The translations under genes and the position numbers were made by a program. The notes beneath the pieces are model-generated. The model was given only the letters and a program-made list of their open reading frames with translations, was not told where the DNA came from and did no database searches. Positions 32,218-39,519 of a stretch of 64,000 nt of DNA are shown here, in pieces (the first letter of the stretch is position 1; the number at the start of each line of letters is the position of its first letter). This DNA is from Sulfurifustis variabilis. Lineage in GTDB: Bacteria > Pseudomonadota > Gammaproteobacteria > Acidiferrobacterales > Sulfurifustaceae. Where the stretch lies: NCBI RefSeq assembly GCF_002355415.1, contig NZ_AP014936.1, positions 3,633,501-3,697,500 of the forward strand. Reading direction: 5' to 3'.

Positions 32218-32487
32218 TCAAAAGGAGTAATGAGCGAGATAGGAGAAGTCGCTCAGCCAGGCGAGCGCCATCACGCAGAGGACCAGGATGCCGACGGCCA
32301 CCCAGTAGCGGCGAGCGTACTTCCGGCCCTTCTCGGGCAGCGCCTTGTACGGCGGGAAGCTGAACAGCGCCCCGAAGGTGTTTTCCCGCACGCCGTTCTG
32401 CTTCTCGTAGTAGAACTTCACGAGCAGCCGGTAGTACACGATCGCGTAACCGACGGCGAACAGCGCGACCGCGAAGAACGCCCGCAT
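32218..32487 (-). CDS. Small two-helix membrane protein, unknown function
   Basis: An 89-residue protein with hydrophobic segments at about residues 1-24 and 62-82 separated by a basic, aromatic cytoplasmic loop (RLLVKFYYEKQNGVREN, then a Pro/Lys-rich stretch). Not recognised. It lies 12 bp downstream of the Crp/Fnr regulator gene on the same strand and may be co-expressed with it. Confidence 0.65.
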   Translation of the reverse strand: MRAFFAVALFAVGYAIVYYRLLVKFYYEKQNGVRENTFGALFSFPPYKALPEKGRKYARRYWVAVGILVLCVMALAWLSDFSYLAHYSF

Positions 32488-32499
32488 CGTCGGCCGGCG

Positions 32500-33201
32500 T
32501 CAGTTCAGCGCCCGCGCGTCCGCGACCAGACGCTCCAGCATTTCCGGCCGGTGGATGCACAGGTGGTGATCCTCCACGTCGATTACTCCGCTGCGCCGCA
32601 GCTCGCTCAGGACTCCGGTCACCGTGGGGCGCGTCGCACCGATCATGTCGGCGAGCTCCTGGTGGGTCAGCTTGATACTGAGGCGCAGGTGCGCGGGCGT
32701 CACGCGTTGCCCGTAACGCGCCGACAGGCGGATAAGGAGCTTGGCGAGCCGGGTCGTCACGTCGTCGGCCGTGAGGTTCTTCACCATGTCGCCGAGGATG
32801 CGCAGGCGGCAGGAGAGGAGCTCGATCACCAGCATCGCGGTCGAGGGGTGGTCGATCAGAAAATCCTTGAACAGGCGCTGAGGGACGGCGTAGAGCCGGC
32901 AGTCGCTGCACGCCTGCGCGTAAACCTCGCGCGGCCCGCCTCGGGGCATCTCGGCGATCCCGAACACTTCGCCCGGGAAGCAGAACCAGAGAATCACTTC
33001 CTTCCCGAGCGACGACATGCCGAAGATTTTGACCCGGCCCCGCTCCAGGATGTAAACGGTTTCACCCGGGGAACCGGCCTGGAAAACGAAGTCTCCGTTC
33101 CGGGCCAGGCGCGCGTCGGCCACCCCGAGCAGATCCCGCCGGTCGGCGGGCGGCAGGCGGCCGAGAAAATCCGATGGGGACAGAAACCAGAGCTCGCTCA
33201 T
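32500..33201 (-). CDS. Crp/Fnr family transcriptional regulator
   Basis: A 233-residue regulator. The cyclic-nucleotide-binding-like domain (about 10-125) contains GETVYILERGRVKIFGMSS and FCFPGEVFGIAEM. A C-terminal winged HTH (about 150-225) has the recognition region LTHQELADMIGATRPTVTGVLSELRRSGVI. It lacks the N-terminal Cys cluster of FNR, so it is not an iron-sulfur oxygen sensor; CSDC at mid-protein is a different arrangement. The ATG at 33201 has a GGAGG site. It diverges from the SLC13 transporter gene, whose promoter it may control. Confidence 0.88.
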   Translation of the reverse strand: MSELWFLSPSDFLGRLPPADRRDLLGVADARLARNGDFVFQAGSPGETVYILERGRVKIFGMSSLGKEVILWFCFPGEVFGIAEMPRGGPREVYAQACSDCRLYAVPQRLFKDFLIDHPSTAMLVIELLSCRLRILGDMVKNLTADDVTTRLAKLLIRLSARYGQRVTPAHLRLSIKLTHQELADMIGATRPTVTGVLSELRRSGVIDVEDHHLCIHRPEMLERLVADARALN

Positions 33202-33401
33202 CCTTAACCTCCGACGATCCATTGCTCGGGCATGTCGGCCAGCCGACAGAATTGCGCCGCCTTCTTTTGATGTAGTACGCGCGGAAGCTTGTCCACGCAC
33301 GATTAGGCGCTATTTTCAAAGTGGGGTCAATCTGGTAAGTAAGCCCCAGCCATCAGTTGCAGGACACGGACAAGTTAACAACAGCCAATGAGGTGGCCGC
33401 T

Positions 33402-34955
33402 ATGGCGATAGCAGTGGAAACGAGACGAGGTGGGAATGGCGTTATCGGTTATCTGACAGACAACGTGAGAGAGAGCGGGCGCAATCCCACCCGCGTCTTC
33501 ACCGGCTTCCTCCTCGCCTGGATAAGCTTCGCTCTCATCATGTGGGTCCTCCCCCGGCCCGAGGGGCTGTCGGCGGAGGGCATGGCGGTTCTCGCGATCG
33601 TCGTCTGGGCCTCGGTCATGTGGGTGTCGGAGGCCATGCCGGTCGGCATTACCGCGCTCGGCATCCCCTCCCTCCTGATCCTGACCCACGCCATCCCCTG
33701 GCAAAAGAACCAACCGCCCCTCGACTTCGTGCTGCAAGGCTTCACGCGCCACGTCGTCTGGATCCTGCTGTTCGGCATGATGATCGGCGCCCTCATGCAG
33801 CTGCTCAAGCTCGACCGGCGCCTCGCGCTGTCGATCCTCGACAAGATCAAGGCGTCCAATGCGGGCCGTGTCATCTGGGGTTTCTTTTTCGTCCAGCTGA
33901 TTCTCTCGTTCTTCATTCCGGCGGCGGTCGCGCGCTCGGCCACGATCATGCCGATCGTCCAGGGCGTGACGAACCTGCTGGGCGACACGGAGGAGGAGCA
34001 GGCGGCGAAGAAAGCCATCATCATCCAGTCCCTCGTCTACACCAGCATGATCGCCGGCATGTTCATCATGACGGCGCACCTGCCGAACATGATCCTGGTC
34101 GGCCTCTTCGGGCAGAACGGCTTCGCGCTCGGTTACCTCGACTGGATGCTGCTGCAGTTCCCCTACCTCGGCATGTTCGTGCTGACGCAGTGGTGGGTAC
34201 GCTACCACTTCAAGACGGCGCGGGTGGAGATCGCGGGGGGTCATAACTCGATCCACCAGATGCACAAGGAGCTCGGCCCGATGACGACGGCCGAGTGGGT
34301 GCTGATCGCCATGTTCTCCGGCATCGCGCTCTTCTTCGTGCTCGGCAAGAACAGCCCGATCTACCCGGTGCACAGCTTCCAGCTCGGCATCATCGCCCTG
34401 ATCGGCATCTCCCTGGTGATGTTCGTCCCCGGCCTGTTCCCGTTCAAATGGAAGCAGGTCCAGGACCGCACGATGTGGGGCACGTTCCTGCTCCTCGGGG
34501 GCGCGATCACCATGACCGGCGCGATGACCAAGTCCGGTCTTGCCGCGTGGCTGGCGGACCACGTGCACGCGATGGTGACCGGTCATACTTGGTGGATGGT
34601 GCTGCTCATGATGATGGTCGGCACCCACATCATGCGAATCGGCATGCTGTCCAACGTGGCGGCTATCGCCATGCTGGCGCCGATCCTGTTCGAGCTCGGC
34701 AAGCAGCTCGGGCTGCATCCCGTCGCTTTCACGATGCTGGTGGCCGATACCGATACCTTCGCTTACCTGCTGCCGACCCAGATCACTGCGGCGGTTGTCG
34801 CCTACGGCACGGACACGTTCAGCACGACCGATTACTTCAAGGTCGGATGGGCTTGCGTGCTGATCGCGATCGCGTACGGCATTCTGATCATGGCGCCCTG
34901 GTACGCCATCCTCGGCATGCCGGTCTGGAATCCGGGCGCCCCCTGGCCGTTCTGA
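33402..34955 (+). CDS. SLC13/DASS family anion:sodium symporter
   Basis: A 517-residue inner-membrane protein with about 12-13 hydrophobic segments. DASS features include AVVWASVMWVSEAMPVGITAL near the N-terminus, SFFIPAAVARSATIMPIV in the first hairpin-associated region and MLVADTDTFAYLLPTQIT near the C-terminus. Family members import sulfate, dicarboxylates or citrate with sodium; the substrate here is unknown. The ATG at 33402 has GAGGTGG upstream; a TTG 45 bp earlier is less likely. A terminator-like hairpin separates it from the PHP-type hydrolase gene. The divergent Crp/Fnr gene is the likely regulator. Confidence 0.9.
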   Translation: MAIAVETRRGGNGVIGYLTDNVRESGRNPTRVFTGFLLAWISFALIMWVLPRPEGLSAEGMAVLAIVVWASVMWVSEAMPVGITALGIPSLLILTHAIPWQKNQPPLDFVLQGFTRHVVWILLFGMMIGALMQLLKLDRRLALSILDKIKASNAGRVIWGFFFVQLILSFFIPAAVARSATIMPIVQGVTNLLGDTEEEQAAKKAIIIQSLVYTSMIAGMFIMTAHLPNMILVGLFGQNGFALGYLDWMLLQFPYLGMFVLTQWWVRYHFKTARVEIAGGHNSIHQMHKELGPMTTAEWVLIAMFSGIALFFVLGKNSPIYPVHSFQLGIIALIGISLVMFVPGLFPFKWKQVQDRTMWGTFLLLGGAITMTGAMTKSGLAAWLADHVHAMVTGHTWWMVLLMMMVGTHIMRIGMLSNVAAIAMLAPILFELGKQLGLHPVAFTMLVADTDTFAYLLPTQITAAVVAYGTDTFSTTDYFKVGWACVLIAIAYGILIMAPWYAILGMPVWNPGAPWPF

Positions 34956-34970
34956 AACGCCGCTGGACCG

Positions 34971-35005
34971 CGCCCTCCCGCCAGGGAGGGCGTCTCTCCC
35001 TTTTT
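34971..35005 (+). terminator. Terminator or attenuator between transporter and hydrolase genes
   Basis: CGCCCTCCC (34971-34979) pairs with GGGAGGGCG (34984-34992) around GCCA, followed by TCTCTCCCTTTTT. The next start codon is 24 bases on, so read-through would be needed for co-transcription. Confidence 0.75.
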
Positions 35006-35028
35006 CCGGTAAGACATGAGGTAGCACC

Positions 35029-37482
35029 ATGAAGACCTTTACCGACAACGAACTGAAAAAGAAGCTGGACGACGCCCCGAACGGCGGCACGGCGGCCGCC
35101 AAGCCGCGAACGGCGGCCGAAATCCGCCAGGCGCTCGGCGACTACCATGCGCCCGACGGCCTGTACGAGAAGCTGAAGGGCATGTCGTTCCTCGGCGCCG
35201 TGAAATGCAATGTCGAGAAGATCATCGCGGGCTCGTGGCAGGAGATCGTTCTCGATTTCGAGGTGGGCTCCTCCGGCATGGCGGACGGCTCCTGGTTCAA
35301 GGCGACCTTCCGCTTCTATTCCGACTGGGCGCTGTTCCAGACGACGGATCCCGCCGGGGCCAACTACATCTCGGCCGAGTACCACGCCGGCGGCCTCGTC
35401 CCCGGACAGAGCCCGGCCACGGTGCAGGCGCTCAAGGTGCGCTTCGACCAGAAGGGTCACGAGCGTCCCTTCCAGAAAGCGGTCATCGTCGACACGGTCG
35501 ACGGCTACGTGAAGGCGGGCGACCACATCGTGATCCGCCTGGGCGACCGCCGCTTCGGCGGCCCGGGCACCCGGGTGCAGACCTTCGTGGAGGAGAACTT
35601 CCGGATCCGCTGCTACGTGGACCCCCTCGGCACATCGCGCTTTTCCGCCGTACCGGGCGACATCGTGATCCAGATCGTGCCGGGACCGGTCGCGCAGCTC
35701 GTCTGGGCCGGCTCCCGCATGGTCCGGGCGGGCACGCCCGTGCCGCTGCGCGTGCGCGCCGAGGACGAGTGGGGCAACACCTGCTGGAACGCGCCGGAAA
35801 AGATCGAGATCACGGCGACCCGGGACGGCAAACCGGTTTACGAGAAGAAGGCGACGCTCGCCGACAAGGGCTGGGCGGTGCTGCTGCTGAAGGACCTGCC
35901 GACCGACAAGCCGGGAGAGCTGGCTGTCACCGCGCGCCTTCTCGATCATCCGTTTATCAAGCCGCAGACCTTCTATCTCTCGATTGAACAGGAGCTCGTC
36001 AGTCCGCGCATTTACTACTGCGACCTGCACGTGCACTCCGACGACACGATCGGCACCAACAGCACCCGCTACAACCTCACCTACGGCCGCGACGTCTCGG
36101 GGCTCGACGTGCTGGCGTTCGCGCACAACGACTTCAACATCACGACCGAACGCTGGAACAAGACCGTCGAGCTGATCCACGAGATCACGCAGGACGGCAG
36201 CTTCGTCGCCTTCCCGGGCACGGAATGGTGCGGCAGCTCGTGCGTGGGCGGCGACCACAACGTGGTGTTCCTGCACGGCAAGACGCCGGAGTTCCCGTTC
36301 CTCAAGACCGGCGAGCACGTGCGGTCGGTCGACTGGAACGAGGACACCAAGTCCAACGAAGCGGTCCCCGGCGCCTGGCCGCTCGAGGACCTGTGGCTCG
36401 CGTACGCCAAGGACCCCGAGGGCCATCTGCTGATTCCGCACGTGGGCGGGCGCCGCTGCATCCTCGACTGGCACTACCCCAAGCTCGAGCGGCTGATCGA
36501 GATCGGTTCCAGTTGGGGCCACTTCGGCTGGCTCTACCAGGAGGCCATGGAGCGCGGCTACAAGATCGGCGCCTCGATGGCCGGCGACGAGCACCGCGGC
36601 CGCTGCGGCGGCGGCGTCCCGGGCACGGCCGTGTTCGGCACCAAGGGCGGCGTGTCCGGCGTGCTCGCGAAGGAACTGACGCGCGTCGAGATCGGAAGAG
36701 CGCTGCGCGCCCGTCACACCTACGCGACCACCGGCGAGCGCACGGTCGCCCTCGCCCGCTGCGGCGAGCACATCCAGGGCGACGAGTTCGAGCACCAGGG
36801 CAAGGCCGTCATCGACTACCGGCTGCTCGGCGACGCGGGCTGGGACGAGGTGGTCGCGTACGACCACACCGGACCGATCTGGCGGCGCGACCTCCAGGAG
36901 GAGCTCGGCTACTCCGAGCGAAAGATCCGCTTCCGCTGGGGCGGCGCCCGCGTGAAGGACCGCTACCGCTGGGCGGCCTGGAAGGGAAAGATCACCATTC
37001 GGGGCGCCGTGATCAACGACTTCCAGGGCCGCGGCTTCGAGCACATCGAGGAGACCTCCTGGCGCGAGAGCGCGACCCAGGTCGGCTTCAAGAGCGACAC
37101 CTACGGCGACGTCGACGCGATCGAGATGGACGTGACCGGCCTCGCGAACGCCACGATCCGCGTGGAGGGCACCATCGACGGCTACGTGAAGGTCGGCGAT
37201 CCGCTCAAGGGCAATCCCTTCGCGCACTGCCCGACCTTCGAGTGGGAGATCACGGGCCGCGAGCTGCTCGAAGCGGCGAAGCTCAGGAAGGACCTGCCCG
37301 GGGTGGAGATGTTCCTCGCCTTCGAGCGCATGAGCGAAAAGGCCGCGCCCCGGGACGTGTCGGGGCGCATCGAGGTGGAACCGAAGAACGGCCCCCACGG
37401 CTTCCGGCCGGTATACCTCTACGGGCGTCAGGTCGACGACGCGAAGGTCTGGACGTCGGCGCTCTTCATTACGTTCAAGTAG
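35029..37482 (+). CDS. DUF3604-like PHP-type metal-dependent hydrolase, 817 residues
   Basis: A large cytoplasmic protein without signal peptide. Residues about 40-315 form beta-rich Ig-like modules (GSSGMADGSWFKATFRFYSD; a WGNTCWN segment near 247). From about 328 a PHP-like domain begins: CDLHVHSDDT with His334 and His336, LDVLAFAHND, GTEWCGSSCVGGDHNVVF, LLIPHVGG, then MAGDEHRGRCG with a DxH pair. The metal ligands look intact, so phosphoesterase or related hydrolysis is plausible. The C-terminal 200 residues are again beta-rich. It resembles DUF3604 proteins, which have no assigned substrate. Its position after an SLC13 anion importer suggests that it handles the imported compound. Terminators flank it on both sides. 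Confidence 0.75.
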   Translation: MKTFTDNELKKKLDDAPNGGTAAAKPRTAAEIRQALGDYHAPDGLYEKLKGMSFLGAVKCNVEKIIAGSWQEIVLDFEVGSSGMADGSWFKATFRFYSDWALFQTTDPAGANYISAEYHAGGLVPGQSPATVQALKVRFDQKGHERPFQKAVIVDTVDGYVKAGDHIVIRLGDRRFGGPGTRVQTFVEENFRIRCYVDPLGTSRFSAVPGDIVIQIVPGPVAQLVWAGSRMVRAGTPVPLRVRAEDEWGNTCWNAPEKIEITATRDGKPVYEKKATLADKGWAVLLLKDLPTDKPGELAVTARLLDHPFIKPQTFYLSIEQELVSPRIYYCDLHVHSDDTIGTNSTRYNLTYGRDVSGLDVLAFAHNDFNITTERWNKTVELIHEITQDGSFVAFPGTEWCGSSCVGGDHNVVFLHGKTPEFPFLKTGEHVRSVDWNEDTKSNEAVPGAWPLEDLWLAYAKDPEGHLLIPHVGGRRCILDWHYPKLERLIEIGSSWGHFGWLYQEAMERGYKIGASMAGDEHRGRCGGGVPGTAVFGTKGGVSGVLAKELTRVEIGRALRARHTYATTGERTVALARCGEHIQGDEFEHQGKAVIDYRLLGDAGWDEVVAYDHTGPIWRRDLQEELGYSERKIRFRWGGARVKDRYRWAAWKGKITIRGAVINDFQGRGFEHIEETSWRESATQVGFKSDTYGDVDAIEMDVTGLANATIRVEGTIDGYVKVGDPLKGNPFAHCPTFEWEITGRELLEAAKLRKDLPGVEMFLAFERMSEKAAPRDVSGRIEVEPKNGPHGFRPVYLYGRQVDDAKVWTSALFITFK

Positions 37483-37503
37483 CCGGCCCCCTGCGCAGGC
37501 CTC

Positions 37504-37535
37504 GAGGAGCGCCCTTCGGGCGCTCCTCTTTTCTT
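37504..37535 (+). terminator. Rho-independent terminator after the hydrolase gene
   Basis: Perfect 11-bp arms GAGGAGCGCCC (37504-37514) and GGGCGCTCCTC (37518-37528), loop TTC, then TTTTCTT. It lies just beyond the stop of the convergent solute-binding gene and could serve both. Confidence 0.92.
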
Positions 37536-37537
37536 CC

Positions 37538-38410
37538 TCACTCGGCGCGCGCGAGCCCGTGGTGCGCGTAAATGCCGGCCGCCTCCTCCCCGAGCAGGAA
37601 ATCGAGCAGCGCGCGGCCGTGCGCGCCGCCGTCGCCGACGAGTCCGGCGTGCAGCCGCGTCACGACGTTGTCGGCCGAGGCGCGCTCGGGCGCGCCGTCC
37701 AGCGACACGAGGTCGAACCGCTCCGGGAAGATCCGCGTGTAACGCAGCGCCAGGTGGTAGTAGACGAGGGCGGCGTCGGCCCGTCCGTCCGCGACCGCCT
37801 CGGGCGCCTCGCGATGGTGGATGCGTTCTCCGTAGACCACGCGCCCGGCGTCGGCGAGCAGCGCGAGCCGGATGCCCGCCTGCCGCGCGAGCCCGGCAAG
37901 GGTATCGCGGTACACTTCGTAGCTCGCCGCCTCCCGCTCCGGATTCGAAAGGAACAGCCGCACGCCGGGACGGTCGAGGTCGGTCAGGCGCCGGATCCCC
38001 TTCGGGTTGCCCTTGACCACCAGCAACACGTTGCCTCGAGATCGCATGAACGGCATGTGCCCGGCCATCGCGCCTTTCGCGACCGCGCGATCGAGGACAC
38101 CCGGCGGGCTGATGAAGACGTGCGGACGGGCTGCGATCACGAGATTACCGAGCCGCAGCCGCCCGGCATCGAGCAGCGCGAGCAGCACGCCCGGCGGGGT
38201 CGTGGCGTAGAACGGCTCGCCGGCCGCGGGATGGCGGCGCCGGAACGCGGCCAGGCACGCGCGCAGCGCCATGTGGTGGTTGCCGTCAGAGTAGACCGCG
38301 AGGCTGGCGGCGGGATCGCCGTGGAAATCCAGGCACAGGTTGGAGCCGGGTTGATACCAGCGCGGCGCCGTATCTTCCTCGGCTGCTCGTTCTTCGGGCC
38401 AGTCCAGCAT
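37538..38410 (-). CDS. Molybdate/tungstate-like solute-binding domain protein without signal peptide
   Basis: A 290-residue protein with the type II periplasmic-binding fold pattern: LCLDFHGDPAASLAVYSDG at the first ligand loop, LRLGNLVIAARPHVFISPPG, VLLVVKGNPKGIRRLTDLDRPGVRLFLSNPEREAASYEVYR, and ADAALVYYHLALRY. The last pieces are like ModA/WtpA-type proteins. No signal peptide or lipobox is present, and no permease or ATPase gene is adjacent, so it may be a cytoplasmic ligand sensor or a decayed transporter part. It is divergent from the PhnD-like gene. The function is not established. Confidence 0.6.
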   Translation of the reverse strand: MLDWPEERAAEEDTAPRWYQPGSNLCLDFHGDPAASLAVYSDGNHHMALRACLAAFRRRHPAAGEPFYATTPPGVLLALLDAGRLRLGNLVIAARPHVFISPPGVLDRAVAKGAMAGHMPFMRSRGNVLLVVKGNPKGIRRLTDLDRPGVRLFLSNPEREAASYEVYRDTLAGLARQAGIRLALLADAGRVVYGERIHHREAPEAVADGRADAALVYYHLALRYTRIFPERFDLVSLDGAPERASADNVVTRLHAGLVGDGGAHGRALLDFLLGEEAAGIYAHHGLARAE

Positions 38411-38598
38411 GGATCGCCTCCGTGTCGTCGATTCGGCCGTTCGATGCCGTCCGGGGATTTAAGCACGACCGTCCATCGGCCGTCCCGGCGGGCGCTGGAC
38501 AAATTCAAAGGCGCGGCTACGTTCAGTTATTGCCACTCGGTGGTGGGTGCGGCTCCTGGATGCCGCAAAAACGGAATCTTCAAGACAGGGAGGTAACG

Positions 38599-39519
38599 AT
38601 GGAACGTCCTCGTGTTTTCTTCCGGTTGCTGCTCGGCTTCGGCCTGCTTTCCTCGGCTCTCGGCAGCGTGGCGGACAGCGGGCCGCGCGCCGCCGGCGCC
38701 ACCAAAGTCGCGTTCATTCCCCCGGACAGTCCGCTCGACAAGGTCATGGAGAAGGCCCCTGCGGCCGCGATGACCGAGGGCGGGGACTTCGTGTTCAGCG
38801 CACCGCCGCGCGGGAGCTACGAGGAGGAAGTGGCGACCTACCAGCCGATCACGGAGTACCTGAGCAAGATCACCGGCAAGCGTTTCGTTTACAAGTATTC
38901 CGACAACTGGCTGAGCTACAGCAGGGACATGACCAACGGCGTCTATGACCTGGTCTTCGATGGTCCGGCGTTCAACGGCTGGCGCATGGACAAGATGAGC
39001 CATACTCCCCTCGTGAAGCTGCCGGAGGACTTCGTGTTCGTCGTGATCACCCGCAAGGACAACGCGCAGATCACGGAGCTGAAGCAACTCGCCGGCCGCA
39101 AGGTCTGCGCCCATGCGCCGCCCAATCTCGGCACCCTGACGATGCTGTCTCAGTTCGACAACCCGGCGCGTCAGCCGGTCATCCAGCAGGTCAAGGGCTG
39201 GGACAACAACTACAGGGCGATGATCGAAGGGAAATGCGCGGGCACCGTCGTCCCGATCAAGAACTTCGAAAAGAACGACAAGGGCATGGCGAAGATCCTC
39301 TACCGCCACCGCGCGATGCCGAACCAGGCCTTCTCGGCCGGTCCGCGCATTACGCCCGAGATGCGGAGCAAGATTCAGCAGGCGCTGCTCTCGCAGGAAG
39401 GCAAGTCGGCGACGGCGAAGCTGCGCTCCGTCTATGCCGGCAAGGACTTCGTCCCCGCAAGAGCCGAGGAGTACGCAGGGCTGGGCCGGCTGCTCAAGGA
39501 CAGCCTCTACTACTACTAG
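38599..39519 (+). CDS. PhnD-like periplasmic phosphate/phosphonate-type binding protein
   Basis: A 306-residue exported protein: signal peptide at residues about 1-27 (RLLLGFGLLSSALGSVADS), then a PhnD/type II binding fold with YEEEVATYQPITEYLSKITG, GVYDLVFDGPAFNGW, FVFVVITRKDN, and LAGRKVCAHAPPNLGTLTML. The ATG at 38599 follows a strong GGGAGG site; a longer frame upstream is rejected. No ABC permease or ATPase gene is adjacent, so it is an orphan binding protein; such proteins can also feed sensor kinases. It ends in a strong terminator. Confidence 0.82.
   Translation: MERPRVFFRLLLGFGLLSSALGSVADSGPRAAGATKVAFIPPDSPLDKVMEKAPAAAMTEGGDFVFSAPPRGSYEEEVATYQPITEYLSKITGKRFVYKYSDNWLSYSRDMTNGVYDLVFDGPAFNGWRMDKMSHTPLVKLPEDFVFVVITRKDNAQITELKQLAGRKVCAHAPPNLGTLTMLSQFDNPARQPVIQQVKGWDNNYRAMIEGKCAGTVVPIKNFEKNDKGMAKILYRHRAMPNQAFSAGPRITPEMRSKIQQALLSQEGKSATAKLRSVYAGKDFVPARAEEYAGLGRLLKDSLYYY

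Follow-up and report, generated by a model that had tools for sequence, protein, structure and literature searches.

Which compound could unite, in one block of genes, an SLC13 anion importer, an 817-residue DUF3604-like protein and a ModA-like binding protein is the question raised by positions 33402-39519 of a 64,000-nucleotide stretch (the window; positions 3,633,501-3,697,500) of the 3.96-Mb single-contig genome of Sulfurifustis variabilis. A model reading of the letters alone (the sequence-only reading) had described an SLC13 transporter followed by genes for an 817-residue DUF3604-like, a ModA-like and a PhnD-like protein, with a divergent Crp/Fnr gene at the left, and had proposed uptake and hydrolysis of an anionic compound. 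Open reading frame and Pfam/NCBIfam profile checks placed every one of these genes where that reading had put it, with agreeing domain matches. Comparison of 88 related loci makes us confident that the genes form one conserved module, and we give about even odds (a probability of roughly 0.5) that it is a self-contained system for the uptake and cleavage of a sulfonate or another sulfur-bearing anion.

Neighbourhood conservation and transporter exchange

Related loci were collected with an alignment of 19 hydrolases, used in a pattern scan of GTDB genomes that yielded 342 stretches, 290 of them encoding a relative; the best 80 of these 290, the window and seven plasmid loci make up the set of 88, in which open reading frames were clustered by blastp. 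The 80 loci represent the closest relatives, and the fractions reported here hold for that clade, not for all DUF3604 proteins. Transporter genes identified by Pfam accompany the hydrolase in 79 loci: SLC13 in 41, the tripartite tricarboxylate transporter (TTT) TctCBA in 22 and an SsuA-like ATP-binding cassette (ABC) system in 16. The first of these counts bears out the neighbourhood comparison proposed by the sequence-only reading, which had expected SLC13 genes near homologues of the hydrolase. The TTT class includes L101, with its gene at 2.6 kb, and L037, whose hydrolase is only ~30% identical, and the ABC class includes L116, with its gene 6.2 kb off; the nine unassigned loci are contig ends or carry other transporters, ABC genes still lying near L032 and L034. 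Where more than 3.5 kb of upstream sequence was available (67 loci), one of the three types is found in 63 and a Crp/Fnr gene in 52, and the 46 loci with long flanks on both sides include 35 with the Crp/Fnr gene and 28 with the ModA-like gene. Recurring in this many loci, the neighbourhood is more than chance.

On a maximum-likelihood tree of the hydrolase (86 rows), the transporter class switches at least 14 times, and the count stays at 14 on 79 rows (74 with an assigned type) from which the plasmid rows were dropped because of long branches (L037, L032 and L033). Closely related hydrolases are found with different carriers: L075 (TctA-type) is close to L078 (SLC13), the ABC loci L090/L091 lie near L093 (TctA-type) and form with it and L100 a further group of differing carriers, and the same is seen for L096 and L101 and for L054 and L064. 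The hydrolase of genome G183 is 89% identical to that of the ABC-linked L090, yet is encoded beside an SLC13 gene, and in G693 a GntR regulator occurs together with SLC13. Since three unrelated carriers swap around one enzyme, one shared imported substrate is the best explanation, and we consider it quite probable that the three transporter types have that substrate in common. The carrier of the window is a 517-residue SLC13/DASS protein, a predicted anion importer (33402-34955, plus strand), which passes the TIGR00785 threshold (202.2 bits; cut-off 198.6) and matches Na_sulph_symp (PF00939) at 216 bits; the SLC13 motifs inspected gave no pointer to the substrate.

Probable operator, putative hydrolase and cytosolic partner

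The Crp/Fnr-family gene (32500-33201, minus strand, with the ATG at 33201 or 33222; cNMP_binding and HTH_Crp_2 domains) is divergent from the operon, as the sequence-only reading had it, and belongs to the module: it is present in 56 of the 88 loci and lies on the strand opposite to the hydrolase in 55 of these 56. Between this gene and the operon sits a palindrome with the consensus TGTCRGCTRGCYGACA, a conserved operator that a longer Crp/Fnr frame (to 33300) would overrun. The pattern TGTCA-N6-TGACA occurs with up to two mismatches in 52 of 55 loci, versus 7.95 expected (standard deviation 2.5; maximum 14 in 100 first-order resamples), and with up to one mismatch in 28 of the 55, versus 0.64 expected; the pattern was picked after viewing some of the regions, which makes the expectation optimistic, but the contrast is still very large. 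The 52 loci comprise 30 with SLC13, 13 with TTT, eight with ABC and one without an assigned type. One-mismatch sites reach a density of 1.28 per kb between regulator and operon versus 0.023 per kb elsewhere in the same loci (~56-fold). In the 64-kb window, the sole match to TGTCRN6YGACA (0.19 expected) is TGTCGGCCAGCCGACA at 33233-33248, the probable operator. Eight loci without the Crp/Fnr gene have no site with up to one mismatch upstream of the hydrolase operon, the one such site in them, in L035, lying behind the hydrolase; a search for generic FNR/CRP half-sites was noisy.

The genome-wide operator search returned two further sites (reversed-pattern control, 0), near our chance estimate of ~1, and we therefore claim no regulon. 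One of them repeats the exact 16-base palindrome of the window at 1,449,556-1,449,571 (L146:6057-6072), between alaS and an aspartokinase gene (names assigned by eye), and is either a chance copy or a real second target. The other (L147:4981-4996) is flanked by two genes, likewise named by eye, one for a small exported protein resembling DsrE and one for a protein like class II aldolases.

The putative metallohydrolase (817 residues; 35029-37482, plus strand) matches DUF3604 (PF12228) at 32.2 bits (cut-off 20.4) over just 38 residues, 538-575, and at 20.9 bits in the genome search. Its AlphaFold model, with a mean predicted local distance difference test (pLDDT) score of 83, consists of beta-rich N-terminal regions, a PHP-fold domain at ~325-570 and a beta-rich C-terminal part. 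The domain superposes on 2anu with Z 19.1 (2.7 Å, 195 residues) and on 3e38 with Z 18.9; plain Foldseek with the whole model returned mainly beta-sandwich proteins, and in sequence searches neither the hydrolase on its own nor its profile matched any solved structure. The HxH, Glu, His and DxH metal ligands of the PHP superfamily are present, and the HxH and DxH pairs, which the sequence-only reading had called intact, are among nine residues (H334, H336, N367, D368, E399, D409, H471, D520 and H522) invariant in 48 sequences including that of the window. Motif II, a position normally occupied by histidine in PHP proteins, reads N367-D368 by hand alignment and is invariant in the 48 sequences and also in 13 rows with distant relatives. 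On the metal site, for which the sequence-only reading had suggested a structural check, the fold and the invariance of the ligands in sequence hold, while the model is weak at the loop 522-534, which includes H522 and has pLDDT below 50, the DxH geometry being poorly modelled. None of the 48 N-termini tested is of the export type.

The distribution of the hydrolase family is patchy. At E 1e-150 or better it was found in 5 of 398 genomes from across the phylum and, in a sample of 323 genomes evenly drawn from the host class and filtered at 90% completeness, in 14 at more than 1400 bits (own genome included in both counts), with weaker matches in eight more. On plasmids, it occurs in 59 records, 46 of which cover at least 80% of the query, all below 60% identity. 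Copies in a GntR-ABC-hydrolase arrangement on Klebsiella and Pantoea plasmids (L033, L121, L150 and L151), ~52% identical to the window protein, have their hydrolase annotated as hypothetical. No described function for the DUF3604 family was found in the literature searched, which left out most subscription papers and all preprints; the family appeared there in one study, of Chlamydia transposon mutants, while searches of the same literature for a link of DUF3604 to sulfur or transporters found nothing, and those for a sulfite-releasing lactone hydrolase nothing relevant.

The ModA-like protein (290 residues; 37538-38410, minus strand, convergent with the hydrolase; SBP_bac_11) has a model with pLDDT 92 and the fold of ModA and sulfate-binding proteins, with Z 21.8 against 4kd5 and Z 20.6 against SubI; by sequence, solved structures gave two weak matches only. 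The signal peptide that the sequence-only reading had described as absent from this protein is indeed lacking: a hydropathy test found no export-type N-terminus in 34 homologues, in which the 13-residue peak within the first 45 residues has a top value of 1.43 and a median of 0.52, versus medians of at least 2.2 for binding proteins of exported families. Its description as an orphan did not survive. ModA-like matches at E 1e-30 occur in 28 of the 323 class genomes, 13 of them strong (at least 320 bits, the next being 184), and a strong match is present in 13 of the 14 hydrolase-clade genomes versus 0 of the 309 others, the remaining 15 of the 28 matches being weaker; the bit limits for the partner and for the hydrolase clade were placed at visible gaps in the scores. 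Hydrolase and partner genes lie on separate contigs in three genomes (G154, G210 and G352), and the tie therefore does not come from adjacency alone. In 145 relatives, all 13 full-length strong matches fall in hydrolase-positive genomes. The partner is carried by 13 of the 28 hydrolase-clade relatives, plus two with partial copies (G002 and G031); the others have none or only a weaker paralogue (~155, up to 191 bits) of a kind seen also in genomes without the hydrolase. The ModA-like protein is accordingly a dedicated but non-essential companion, which tracks the hydrolase, whereas the hydrolase can occur alone.

Substrate candidates and peripheral genes

The sequence-only reading had left the anion as perhaps a phosphorus or sulfur compound. 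Host physiology and some of the neighbours favour sulfur over phosphorus; that the substrate bears sulfur we rate as an evenly balanced proposition, and sulfite as the product is a tentative suggestion. The S. variabilis genome encodes SoxB and AprA, both above their cut-offs, and a 969-residue frame with 54% identity to the SoeA-like protein of L113, and the host is therefore a sulfur oxidiser. PMC6397845 states that the species has a complete genome and that the sulfite oxidase encoded by soeABC is cytoplasmic and is conserved among core pathways without SoxCD. In the class sample, SoxB scores above its cut-off in 13 of the 14 hydrolase-clade genomes versus 122 of the 309 others (p 7e-5), and AprA in 10 of the 14 versus 86 of the 309 (p 0.001), with kinship ignored in both comparisons; one or the other is present in all 14.

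SoeABC-like genes stand beside the module in L082, L107 and L113, the last with the order partner, TauE-like, SoeABC-like, Crp/Fnr, SLC13 and hydrolase. The representatives scanned have molybdopterin and 4Fe-4S domains, with three DmsC-type neighbours; the catalytic genes are 51-54% identical to each other and matched no curated SoeA model, and the SoeA-like frame of L082 starts without an evident Tat signal, as judged by eye. Among the 12 annotated plasmid stretches whose hydrolase is more than 50% identical, five (L032, L034, L035, L038 and L149) have a sulfite or sulfonate/sulfone-type gene annotation nearby. Neighbours at these and other loci include soxC in Methylosinus L032, a TauE/SafE-family gene in Rhizobium L038, L113 and L138, sfnB/sfnG/msuE in L035, ssuD/sfnG/msuE in L034, an NtaA/DmoA-family monooxygenase in L137 and L149, and, on a sixth of the 12 plasmid stretches, L148, an LLM flavin oxidoreductase of unspecified type; in three more distant copies, a TauE/SafE gene lies beside L123 and none beside L037 or L122. 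As a small control, among the genes annotated in 147 kb elsewhere on the L034, L035 and L149 plasmids, none is named a sulfonate/sulfone monooxygenase or a sulfite exporter, which shows only non-ubiquity on those plasmids, chosen as they were for their sulfur genes and covered by an incomplete PLSDB gene table. The oxidoreductase of L136, one of five stretches (L127, L133, L136, L137 and L138) read from a further set of 16, was tried as a sulfite oxidase and rejected as a formate dehydrogenase. A trithionate hydrolase was dropped as a candidate, since it would yield sulfate and thiosulfate.

Several observations weigh against a sulfur-cleaving module. The link to sulfur oxidisers is confounded by kinship, SoeABC-like genes adjoin just 3 of the 88 loci, and the other flanking families are mostly unrelated (dnaA, gyrB, topA, dprA, MdoG and methyltransferases). 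No sulfur-annotated gene is found on 6 of the 12 plasmid stretches (Klebsiella, Pantoea and two from A. brasilense). With 158.7 bits, the binding protein of the ABC system in L091 comes close to the SsuA_fam cut-off of 163.5, a point in favour of sulfur, but it misses that cut-off and matches CmpC/NrtC nitrate/bicarbonate-type proteins equally. The two other genomic operator matches, at the alaS/aspartokinase and the DsrE-like/aldolase-like pairs, name no pathway, about half of the hydrolase-clade relatives are without the partner, and the modelled DxH loop is poor, as described above. Finally, SLC13 and TctCBA transporters are more often carboxylate carriers, and the block of the window is flanked by glnA-ntrBC.

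The last two points also speak for the alternative that survives best, a possibility we hold to be clearly the less probable one: the cells would draw carbon or nitrogen from a carboxylate, amide or carbamate cleaved by an enzyme like the carbamate hydrolase CehA, and the sulfur context would only reflect the hosts. It could draw further on the adjacency to glnA-ntrBC in L043 and partly in L044, limited as this is to a few loci, on the GntR regulators of the plasmid copies, on the CoA-transferase and acyl-CoA dehydrogenase near L037 (with its hydrolase of ~30% identity) and on a weak CehA/McbA match (NF038032) of the hydrolase at residues 329-624, although the 22.5 bits of the window protein and the 30.5 bits of its L091 homologue fall far below the cut-off of 80. 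Against it stand the presence of SoxB or AprA throughout the hydrolase-clade genomes checked and the sulfite/sulfonate genes that adjoin the module in several hosts unrelated to each other.

A phosphate ester or phosphonate, cleaved by a PHP-fold phosphoesterase with the PhnD-like protein as a phosphorus-scavenging receptor, is improbable. The Z score of 19.1 is to a predicted phosphoesterase, and the PhnD-like exported binding protein of the window (38596-39519, plus strand; PF12974, 87.8 bits) belongs to a family that is the commonest in Pfam terms (9 of 118) among the scanned neighbour proteins, PhnD/SsuA-type genes also lying near L032 and L148. The family is nevertheless found in only 8 of the 88 loci (the window and seven others), and the protein passes the broad PF12974 model only, far under the PhnD cut-off of TIGR03431 (13.9 versus 261.1 bits); it is a peripheral companion, present in the block as the sequence-only reading had listed it and outside the core. 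Moreover, SLC13, TctCBA and SsuA-like ABC systems are not the usual phosphorus carriers, and no other phosphorus gene appears among the neighbour families listed (the 25 commonest of 114 in one scan). Least probable of all is a purely regulatory link in which SLC13 would export sulfate from sulfur oxidation and the large protein would have another role: DASS proteins are able to carry sulfate and sulfur oxidisers need to export it, but binding-protein-dependent importers (ABC and TctCBA) fill the same slot beside closely related hydrolases.

Other genes accompany the module less regularly. An 89-residue membrane protein, probably with two helices (32218-32487, minus strand), adjoins the Crp/Fnr gene as a peripheral member; its homologues lie beside that gene in 7 of the 88 loci, downstream in six and upstream in L041, and the one homologue scanned had no Pfam match. 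A signal-bearing protein of ~194 residues is encoded upstream of SLC13 in 15 largely betaproteobacterial loci (e.g. L050:7797-8393), with no match in a Pfam scan of two representatives. A second permease family, possibly a product exporter, is found near the module in L094, L097 and L109, the member in L109 having CitMHS and TrkA-C domains.

Proposed mechanism and known systems

The uptake and cleavage of a sulfur-bearing anion could proceed as follows. The Crp/Fnr regulator would bind the palindrome at 33233-33248, as its conservation suggests, and control the divergent operon. The SLC13 permease, or TctCBA or an SsuA-like ABC system elsewhere, would import the small anion, consistent with their repeated exchange, and the PHP-fold metalloprotein, judged by its fold and conserved ligands, would putatively cleave it in the cytoplasm. 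The cytosolic ModA-fold protein may bind the substrate or the product as an intracellular receptor or carrier, a role suggested by fold and co-occurrence. Cleavage of a sulfonate or other sulfur-bearing anion might then feed sulfite or another sulfur oxyanion to cytoplasmic sulfur oxidation, a step for which the evidence is suggestive only. Of the uptake-and-hydrolysis proposal in the sequence-only reading, the importer and the intracellular enzyme are supported by neighbourhood, exchange and operator, and hydrolysis stays putative. A bolder and rather unlikely version would make the enzyme a new class of sulfite-releasing metallohydrolase: sulfur lithotrophs would take up an abundant organosulfonate or bisulfite adduct through swappable carriers and split it hydrolytically in the cytoplasm, the sulfite would be burned by Soe or Apr, and the cytosolic ModA-fold protein would sense or carry the anion, with a dedicated Crp/Fnr switch.

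A recurrent module, common in sulfur oxidisers and with no described function in the literature searched, thus has parts that point to one substrate. Its identity could expose an unrecognised nutrient or energy source of sulfur oxidisers, provide a first function for this branch of DUF3604 and account for an ABC-type binding protein that works inside the cell. The swap of three transporters around one enzyme is, in addition, a natural test of which carriers are able to serve one compound.

Compared with known systems, the hydrolase resembles DUF3604 in passing the family cut-off and in having, like five distant relatives, NDF, EW, GGD, HxGGR and SDxH-type motifs, and differs in its HxH, which reads HxQ in four of the relatives and QxQ in one. 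The weak profile match, far under the cut-off, is shared with CehA/McbA carbamate hydrolases, from which the window enzyme differs in its fixed transporter partner and regulator. Its domain at 325-570 is close to the PHP-fold phosphoesterase TM0559 (2anu), from which it differs by the Asn-Asp in place of the motif-II His (hand alignment) and by large flanking beta-rich regions. The partner shares the fold of ModA and sulfate-binding proteins (Z 20-22) and, unlike them, has no export-type N-terminus, is not bound to any fixed ABC permease or ATPase, occurring alike with SLC13, TctCBA or ABC, carries stretches invariant among its homologues (SDGNHHMAL and HHRE) and is tied to the hydrolase. Finally, the ABC variant of the module is SsuA-like, as in SsuABC sulfonate uptake, and three of its copies stand beside SoeABC-like genes of sulfite oxidation, whereas the module differs from both systems in having no constant desulfonating monooxygenase or lyase.

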